This document shows positions 17,756 to 21,295 of a stretch of 64,000 nucleotides of DNA, one piece after another. The notes beneath the pieces were generated by a model, which was not told where the DNA came from, did not search any database, and worked only from the letters and a program-made list of their open reading frames with translations. Positions within the stretch are counted from its first letter, which is position 1; each line of letters starts with the position of its first letter. Where the stretch lies: NCBI GenBank assembly GCA_030602715.1, contig JAUVZD010000011.1:1-64000 (forward strand), written 5' to 3'. This stretch comes from Candidatus Coatesiibacteriota bacterium. Its GTDB lineage: Bacteria; RBG-13-66-14; B26-G2; JAUVZD01. Both the position numbers and the translations under genes were made by a program.

Positions 17756-18457
17756 TCAATACGACACCCTAAAGCAGAGTATCTCTACGTCGCTTTGTAG
17801 ATAATCCTTCGCCGACTCCACTTTGATAATAAAGTTGCCGCTGAACATCGTTTCGTCCATATAGAGAATGGTATCGTAACCGGGTGGTATCTGGTCCCTG
17901 ATGGCGTTGGAAAGAAGCGGCGGAACCTGCGAGGAGAACATCTCATCACCATAGGGCGAGTATATCCCCGCCTCAATATCCCCCTTCAGAGCGACTATAT
18001 AAGAGTTGCCCCTGATTACATCCAGGTCAAATGAGGAGGGGCTCTCACCGCTTATCCTGGCGCTGTAGCTTCCGGCATATTCCAGGATGGGGATGTCGGG
18101 AAAGACCTTAACCGGCTCAGGTCCACCCTCGGAGAAGAGGGCTTGCTCCAGGGCGCCGATGGTTTGAAAGCTTACGATGCCGTTCGCATCCAGGTGGTGC
18201 TGCTTCTGGAAACTGAGCACAGCCATATAGGTGCCAAAGCCGAAGCTGCCGGTAACGCCCCCTTCGCTTTCCAGAAACTCGCCGTAGCCCAAAGCGTAGA
18301 GGTCCTGCTGGAGAAGGGTGACGAAATCCCCGGGCAGAAGGTCATCTGAGTAGCCGATGGTCAGCAAGTATCCCCCGTAGCGCTCCTGGGAGAGGGAAAC
18401 CCCAGCCAGCGCCAGAAGGAGAACAGTGGCGACTATGGCAATCATCGCTCTTTTCAT
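17756..18457 (-). CDS. Secreted protein with peptidoglycan-binding-like domain
   Basis: Signal peptide; LLQQDLYALGYGEFLESEGGVTGSFGFGTYMAVLSFQKQHHLDANGIVSFQTIGALEQAL resembles PG_binding_1. Confidence 0.7.
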   Translation of the reverse strand: MKRAMIAIVATVLLLALAGVSLSQERYGGYLLTIGYSDDLLPGDFVTLLQQDLYALGYGEFLESEGGVTGSFGFGTYMAVLSFQKQHHLDANGIVSFQTIGALEQALFSEGGPEPVKVFPDIPILEYAGSYSARISGESPSSFDLDVIRGNSYIVALKGDIEAGIYSPYGDEMFSSQVPPLLSNAIRDQIPPGYDTILYMDETMFSGNFIIKVESAKDYLQSDVEILCFRVSY

Positions 18458-19894: not shown

Positions 19895-19923
19895 TTGACC
19901 AAATCCCCGCACCAAGCTATAAT
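19895..19923 (+). promoter_or_regulatory. Near-consensus sigma70 promoter for the repeat-protein cluster
   Basis: TTGACC-N17-TATAAT; about 36-nt predicted 5'UTR to the ATG at 19966. Confidence 0.75.
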
Positions 19924-19965
19924 TCAGTTTTAATCTCCACACACAAAAGAAACCAGGGGGTTTTG

Positions 19966-20400
19966 ATGTTAAAAAGCACCTCCTTCATCATCCTTCTCCT
20001 GCTGGTAGCGGGCGGCACTTGGGCGGACATCACCATCACCGACAGCTCCTATCGCACCGTCGCTCACATTGAGGACGACGGCGATGTGCTTGATTCCTCA
20101 TATCACACCATCGGTCACATAGAGAGCGACGGCGACATCACCGACTCCAGCTACCGCACCATCGGACACATAGAGGAAGACGGCGACATAACCGACAGCT
20201 CCTATCGCATCATCGGGCACATTGAGGACGATGGGGACATAACCGACAGCTCCTACCGCACCATCGGGCACATTGAGGACGACGGGGACATCACCGACGA
20301 TTCCTACCGCACATTAGCCCACGCCGAGGACATGATGCTCGGTCAAAAACCGGTGGTCGCTGCTTATATCTTCTTCTTCACCAATATGTTGACCCCCTAA
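19966..20400 (+). CDS. Secreted five-repeat 'DSSYRTIGHIEDDGDIT' protein (paralogue 1), possibly 5-fold beta-flower-like
   Basis: Signal peptide MLKSTSFIILLLLVAGGTWA; five 17-aa (51-nt) repeats; C-terminal PVVAAYIFFFTNML. Confidence 0.75.
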   Translation: MLKSTSFIILLLLVAGGTWADITITDSSYRTVAHIEDDGDVLDSSYHTIGHIESDGDITDSSYRTIGHIEEDGDITDSSYRIIGHIEDDGDITDSSYRTIGHIEDDGDITDDSYRTLAHAEDMMLGQKPVVAAYIFFFTNMLTP

Positions 20401-20428
20401 ATTTGCCACCTTCATCACGAGGAAGACA

Positions 20429-20848
20429 ATGAACTTAAAGACACTCCTTTGTTTTATTCTCCTCATATCGTTGTCAATGCCCGCCTCCGCTGAGGTTATA
20501 AAGATATATCTGAACGATGAGTTCAAGGCGCTCATTGACGAGGATGGAGAGGTCTACGAGGGGAAAAAGCTAGCCGGGGAAATACAGGAGAACGGCGATG
20601 TCTTTTCAAAGAACACCTTCACCGCCTTCGTCAACAAATACGGCGATATGTATATCGGCAACACCCTCTACAGCAGTATTGAAGAAGACGGCGAGATCTA
20701 TATGAGCGGGCTTTACAAGGGTAAAATTGAGGAGAACGGCGACATCTACATAGGCGACGAGCTATCCGGCTACGCCGAGAACATGGACCCGGAGGAGCGC
20801 TGGAAGGTGATGGCTTATCTGATCCTCTTCGCCCGGGCGGTCAGATAG
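20429..20848 (+). CDS. Secreted five-repeat 'GEIQENGDVYxxN' protein (paralogue 2)
   Basis: Signal peptide MNLKTLLCFILLISLSMPASA; five divergent 16-aa repeats; C-terminal KVMAYLILFA. Confidence 0.75.
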   Translation: MNLKTLLCFILLISLSMPASAEVIKIYLNDEFKALIDEDGEVYEGKKLAGEIQENGDVFSKNTFTAFVNKYGDMYIGNTLYSSIEEDGEIYMSGLYKGKIEENGDIYIGDELSGYAENMDPEERWKVMAYLILFARAVR

Positions 20849-20885
20849 AAATGCAATTTCCCACCGCACCATTGGAGGTAGTGCG

Positions 20886-21295
20886 ATGTATCTCAAAGTA
20901 GGTCTGACAATTACCATACTCCTCCTCGCCGGGGGGCTTTTGCGGACTTTGACATCTACATAGACGGCTCGTATGAGGGGCGGATTGAGAGCGACGGGGA
21001 CATCTACATAGACGGCTCTTACTGTGGTCGCATAGAGATGGACGGGGACGTCTATGTGGACGGCTCTTACGCCGGAAGAATTGAGGATGACGGCGATATC
21101 TACCTGGACGGCTCCTACTACGGGCGCATAGAGGACGACGGCGACATCTACATTGACGGCTCCTACACCGGCAGGATTGAGGACGACGGCGACATATACT
21201 TAGACGGCTCCTACTTCGGCAGGGCTAGCGACATGCCCTACGGCACAGCCCCACTGGTGGTGGGCTATCTGATATTCTTTGCCGGGTATTTGTAG
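20886..21295 (+). pseudogene. Secreted five-repeat 'GRIEDDGDIYLDGSYY' protein (paralogue 3), one-base frameshift after signal peptide
   Basis: MYLKVGLTITILLLAGG in frame 1; adding one G to the G6 run at 20931-20936 restores ...AFADFDIYIDGSYEGRIESDGDIYIDGSYCGRIEMDGD... to the stop at 21295. Confidence 0.75.

Follow-up and report, generated by a model that had tools for sequence, protein, structure and literature searches.

Three consecutive genes in a 64,000-nucleotide stretch of DNA from a Candidatus Coatesiibacteriota bacterium (hereafter the window) encode small repetitive proteins that appear to be exported. Their organization raises the questions of which fold the repeats form, how many units build it, and whether the array is a conserved functional unit. 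The original prediction described three co-directional genes, each with a signal peptide and five I-E-x-D/N-G-D/E repeats, and this description is confirmed, with the signal peptides recognised by eye. The C-terminal motifs AAYIFFF, MAYLILF, and VGYLIFF are likewise present as claimed. We assign a probability of about 0.85 to the reading that the locus is a tandem array of exported beta-flower proteins, each composed of six hairpins and a helix.

Organization of the array

The array comprises the following features:

19895..19923, + strand: sigma-70-like promoter site TTGACC-N17-TATAAT upstream of gene 1, with 11/12 consensus matches (a consensus match only; 2.0 sites are expected by chance at a looser 9/12 threshold)
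19966..20400, + strand: gene 1, with a signal peptide, six hairpins, a 17-residue period, five ExDG tips, and a C-terminal helix; PF21785
20429..20848, + strand: gene 2, with six hairpins, five tips, and a C-terminal helix; apparently a diverged paralogue within the gene 3 line
20886..21295, + strand: gene 3, whole
20886..20936, + strand: start codon and signal peptide of gene 3, read in a frame that differs from that of the mature domain, with the switch at a G6 run
20942..21295, + strand: gene 3 mature domain, with six hairpins, a 16-residue period, five ExDG tips, and a C-terminal helix

The sigma-70-like site begins at the same position as the interval of the original prediction (19895). 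The genes are separated by 28 bases (genes 1 and 2) and 37 bases (genes 2 and 3), and these short gaps suggest that the three genes are co-transcribed. The signal-peptide-like starts of genes 1, 2, and 3, identified by eye, end in GGTWA|D, MPASA|E, and GGAFA|D, respectively, and the mature proteins contain about 117–123 residues each. An exported-looking protein with a PF01471 peptidoglycan-binding domain is encoded near the array on the opposite strand (window 17756–18457, − strand).

Genes 1–3 encode beta-flower proteins with six hairpins

The product of gene 1 matches the Pfam family PF21785 (Bflower_2, "5-fold beta-flower protein", clan CL0395) with 85.3 bits (cut-off 38, E 3.4e-24) over positions 3–112 of the 112-position profile, including the tail. 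This full-length match bears out the expectation that the array encodes beta-flower-like proteins, with the export signals judged by eye. The proteins share with the family the [DNEQ]xxG tips, hairpin units, hydrophobic helix, and export signals, whereas genes 2 and 3 escape the PF21785 model in a Pfam search. Gene 2 has no Pfam match at all, and NCBIfam provided nothing useful for genes 1–3. Among the rows of the gene 3-line alignment, 32 of 39 match PF21785 at E values of up to 10, the best being 1.3e-13. A sequence search of solved structures returned weak matches only, the best of them to a pneumococcal surface protein (E 0.007).

The mature proteins of genes 2 and 3 were predicted by AlphaFold2 from alignments of relatives with pLDDT values of 95.9 and 96.3, respectively, and a pTM of 0.89 for both. 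Each model contains 12 strands and a helix, and the six units of gene 1 were read from its sequence. The two models agree in that a two-residue turn connects the strands within a pair, an E-x-D-G tip connects consecutive pairs, and the last pair is followed by the helix, which spans residues 103–113 in the gene 3 model and 101–114 in the gene 2 model. Since the models have 12 strands, the five tips are the linkers between six hairpins. Thus the folding unit is the hairpin (DIYxDGSYxGRIE), present six times per protein, with the five DGD motifs located between the hairpins.

Beta-flowers have been described with 8, 10, or 12 strands, and many of them enclose a C-terminal hydrophobic helix in the barrel (Durairaj et al. 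2023, PMC10584680). The 12 strands in antiparallel hairpins of the gene 2 and gene 3 models fall within this range, and differ from the ten strands in five hairpins of a five-fold beta-flower. By strand count, the products of genes 2 and 3 would form six-fold, Tubby-sized barrels, not five-fold ones. The family label "5-fold" differs from the six hairpins found here, and the PF21785 model itself appears to contain six hairpins and a helix, because the six hairpins of the relative L105 align almost without gaps to its positions 8–112. This suggests that the Pfam label counts tips and not strand pairs.

The original prediction proposed structure prediction and a Foldseek search as checks. The former yielded confident hairpin models for genes 2 and 3, whereas the latter returned no significant match in the PDB or BFVD. 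The original description of beta-flowers also reported no similarity to PDB entries (PMC10584680). The Tubby C-terminal and phospholipid scramblase-like domains, which belong to the same Pfam clan, also have 12 strands and one hydrophobic helix, and a circular permutation has been described between them and the beta-flowers (PMC10584680). However, the strands and loops of the proteins studied here are much shorter than those of the Tubby and scramblase-like domains, to which Foldseek found no significant match.

Repeats and tips

The repeat periods obtained by autocorrelation are 17 residues for gene 1 (identity 0.71), 16 for gene 2 (0.21), and 16 for gene 3 (0.64), the same values as proposed originally. 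The observed identity was matched in 0, 1, and 0 of 5000 shuffles for genes 1, 2, and 3, respectively. Repeats are about 80% identical to each other at the protein level within genes 1 and 3, and 31% within gene 2. Where repeats share a residue, about 39–50% of the positions are encoded by different codons, and therefore the repeats are old and have been maintained by protein-level selection. The same codon differences rule out a recent expansion of the repeats at the DNA level.

The [DNEQ]xxG motif, which has been described at beta-flower tips (PMC10584680), is present at all 15 tips of genes 1–3. Across relatives, the tip glycine is invariant (195/195 units), and the tip Glu and Asp positions are 80–91% acidic. 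The turn opposite the tip is GSY in Coatesbacteria and carries a basic GS[RK] sequence in most phyla. The mature products of genes 1, 2, and 3 are strongly acidic, with net charges of −23, −13, and −22, respectively.

Alternatives to the proposed closed barrel with an internal helix

The short DGD-type repeats lift gene 3 above the Pfam cut-off for bactofilins (PF04519, 35.9 bits against a cut-off of 27.9), and some level of match to this family is seen in 38 of 39 relatives, as would be expected if the proteins were bactofilins or other open beta-solenoids that polymerise into a scaffold. This is extremely unlikely. The gene 3 match covers only positions 10–63 of the 98-position profile, in three stretches, whereas separate bactofilin matches in the same genome cover nearly the whole profile with 89.9 and 71.7 bits. 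Bactofilins are cytoplasmic, whereas gene 3 has a signal peptide, as judged by eye. Gene 3 therefore does not encode the full-length beta-helix domain free of an export signal that is characteristic of a bactofilin, and its model consists of antiparallel two-strand hairpins in series followed by a C-terminal helix. A fixed number of repeats is also ill-suited to an open solenoid. The bactofilin label on gene 3 is probably a false annotation. The locus L069 lies above the Pfam bactofilin cut-off, as does window 20942–21292, and a systematic false annotation is likely.

The C-terminal segment is strongly hydrophobic and highly conserved, with up to six consecutive phenylalanines in Bacteroidota, and could be imagined to anchor a soluble repeat domain as a transmembrane or sorting tail. 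We consider this very unlikely, as the helix has 11–14 residues in very confident models, which is short for spanning a bilayer, and one C-terminal-type segment sits in the middle of the chain in fused double proteins. Furthermore, the literature places the beta-flower helix inside the barrel (PMC10584680). The original prediction of a conserved hydrophobic tail was correct as to its existence, but this tail, whose function was described as unknown, is the known beta-flower helix, which is part of the PF21785 model.

Five tips are conserved across phyla

The closest named relatives, L069–L071, indicate that the genome belongs to Candidatus Coatesbacteria. Among 13 other genomes of the phylum, 11 encode PF21785-like proteins, and none was found in a sample of 46 more distant genomes. 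Other Coatesbacteria have orthologues whose mature domains are 67–84% identical to that of gene 3, a value that partly reflects the repeated pattern; for the FAD-oxidase and MFS proteins on the flanks, identity to the best matches in those same genomes is about 35–46%. A shift of one to three units lowers the likeness between repeats from 0.865 in register to 0.71–0.79.

Scanning 85,462 species genomes with a five-tip sequence as the query, which introduces a mild bias, identified 44 loci in Bacteroidota, Myxococcota, Acidobacteriota, Aminicenantes, Alteromonadaceae, and Coatesbacteria. Each of the 39 domains in the alignment, which come from Coatesbacteria, Bacteroidota, Myxococcota, Acidobacteriota, and Alteromonadaceae, has five tips, and a one-residue gap within a repeat occurs in one row only. 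The sole relative found with three tips (L111:3959–4276), which may have resulted from assembly collapse, was omitted from the alignment. The five-repeat count thus proved to be conserved in relatives, as anticipated, within the aligned domains. Of the closed five-fold structure proposed originally, the fixed repeat number stands, whereas the five-fold count is wrong, as 12 strands are modelled. The fixed number of units indirectly supports closure of the barrel, which is likely.

Double flowers fused in one chain occur in L073, L076, and L107, where each of the two domains has five tips and a helix, and tandem flower genes are present in L083, L087, and L107. Because the fused doubles and tandem genes arise in separate loci, the duplication of flowers recurs independently. 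One protein from Aureispira (L107:4540–5634) combines two beta-flowers with a type IX sorting domain (PF18962) and adjoins a single-flower gene. In Alteromonadaceae (L109:5029–6345, L110, and L112), a long unannotated N-terminal part is fused to a divergent flower, and the full-length L109 protein has no Pfam match.

The tandem array appears to be private to this genome

The phylogenetic tree separates the gene 1 line from the 16-residue line with a support of 100/100. Gene 2 is placed with the gene 3 line of Coatesbacteria (support 93/93) on a branch of 2.0, compared with 0.07, and because of this long branch its exact position is unsure. No orthologue of gene 2 was found elsewhere in the phylum, and the gene appears to be a private, fast-evolving copy from the gene 3 line. 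In the related genome G001, 9 kb separate the orthologues of genes 1 and 3, which lie on opposite strands, and in other relatives they are still farther apart or on separate contigs. The tandem arrangement thus appears to be private to this genome among the genomes compared. A conserved three-gene operon is ruled out by the separation of the gene 1 and gene 3 orthologues and by the lack of an orthologue of gene 2, and the expectation that the small operon would recur as a unit in relatives was not borne out.

The start codon (20886) and signal peptide of gene 3 are in one frame and its mature domain is in another, with an open frame of 137 codons. The frame switches at a run of six G residues (20931–20936). 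The odds are about even that gene 3 is a freshly broken, non-functional copy in this genome, the alternative being that the switch is a sequencing error. Unbroken copies of gene 3 were found in relatives, and many other G6 or C6 runs in the window are located inside intact genes, so such runs are not generally a source of errors; these observations, together with the difference in frame itself, favour a broken gene. On the other hand, the frame of the mature domain is fully open and conserved to the same degree as in intact orthologues (84% identity to the G001 copy), and therefore any decay of gene 3 must be very recent.

Possible function of the beta-flower proteins

By homology with described beta-flowers, the proteins would form a shallow closed barrel with a channel plugged by the C-terminal helix. 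The two ends of the chain would fill the sixth "petal" position of the barrel, which would be the reason why only five tips are present. The ring of acidic tips might then be displayed to a ligand, which could be a cation-bridged glycan, a lipid head group, or a partner protein. The acidic tips, the basic turn on the opposite side, and the surface or membrane targeting in relatives, two of which (G004a and G005b) have lipobox-like signals recognised by eye, favour a role in binding, as a rigid module of the envelope or cell surface, which we propose tentatively. Outside one related group of Bacteroidota, no gene neighbours are conserved across phyla.

It is unlikely that the proteins act in the handling of lipopolysaccharides or outer-membrane lipids, as a bacterial counterpart of the Tubby-type lipid-binding barrels. 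In ten of the 44 loci, all from Bacteroidota (L080, L081, L082, L083, L084, L086, L088, L090, L092, and L093), the flower gene is preceded at a short distance by kdsA, which encodes Kdo-8-phosphate synthase and points in the same direction, and a wider block is common to only six of them. In L096 and L100, the flower gene and a gene for an LptG-like permease are divergently oriented. A kdsA-like gene is present in the host genome, as are two LptF/LptG genes; therefore, the host is likely diderm and a periplasm is likely. However, the kdsA loci belong to a single related group of Bacteroidota, with kdsA genes that are 80–99% identical, and so the linkage may reflect one event. No lipopolysaccharide genes adjoin the flowers in the window. 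Similarly doubtful is the broader proposition that the "5-fold" beta-flowers are 12-stranded, six-unit barrels around a helix that serve as minimal exported relatives of Tubby and scramblase domains in outer-membrane lipid or lipopolysaccharide handling. A binding module of the envelope or cell surface is the role that we prefer.

Implications for the beta-flower family

The locus provides a genuine and well-conserved example of a fold that is known but has yet to be characterised. The original reading is corrected in that the units number six, the tail is a helix, the array is apparently private, and the bactofilin label is likely false, and the analysis thereby exposes a likely false bactofilin annotation in a conserved subfamily of Coatesbacteria. 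Beta-flowers are a recently named fold without a demonstrated function, for which we found no solved structure, and this locus supplies small, strongly conserved, and confidently predicted representatives. The tip count stays constant from phylum to phylum, and our results suggest that the five-fold label of the family hides a 12-strand barrel.
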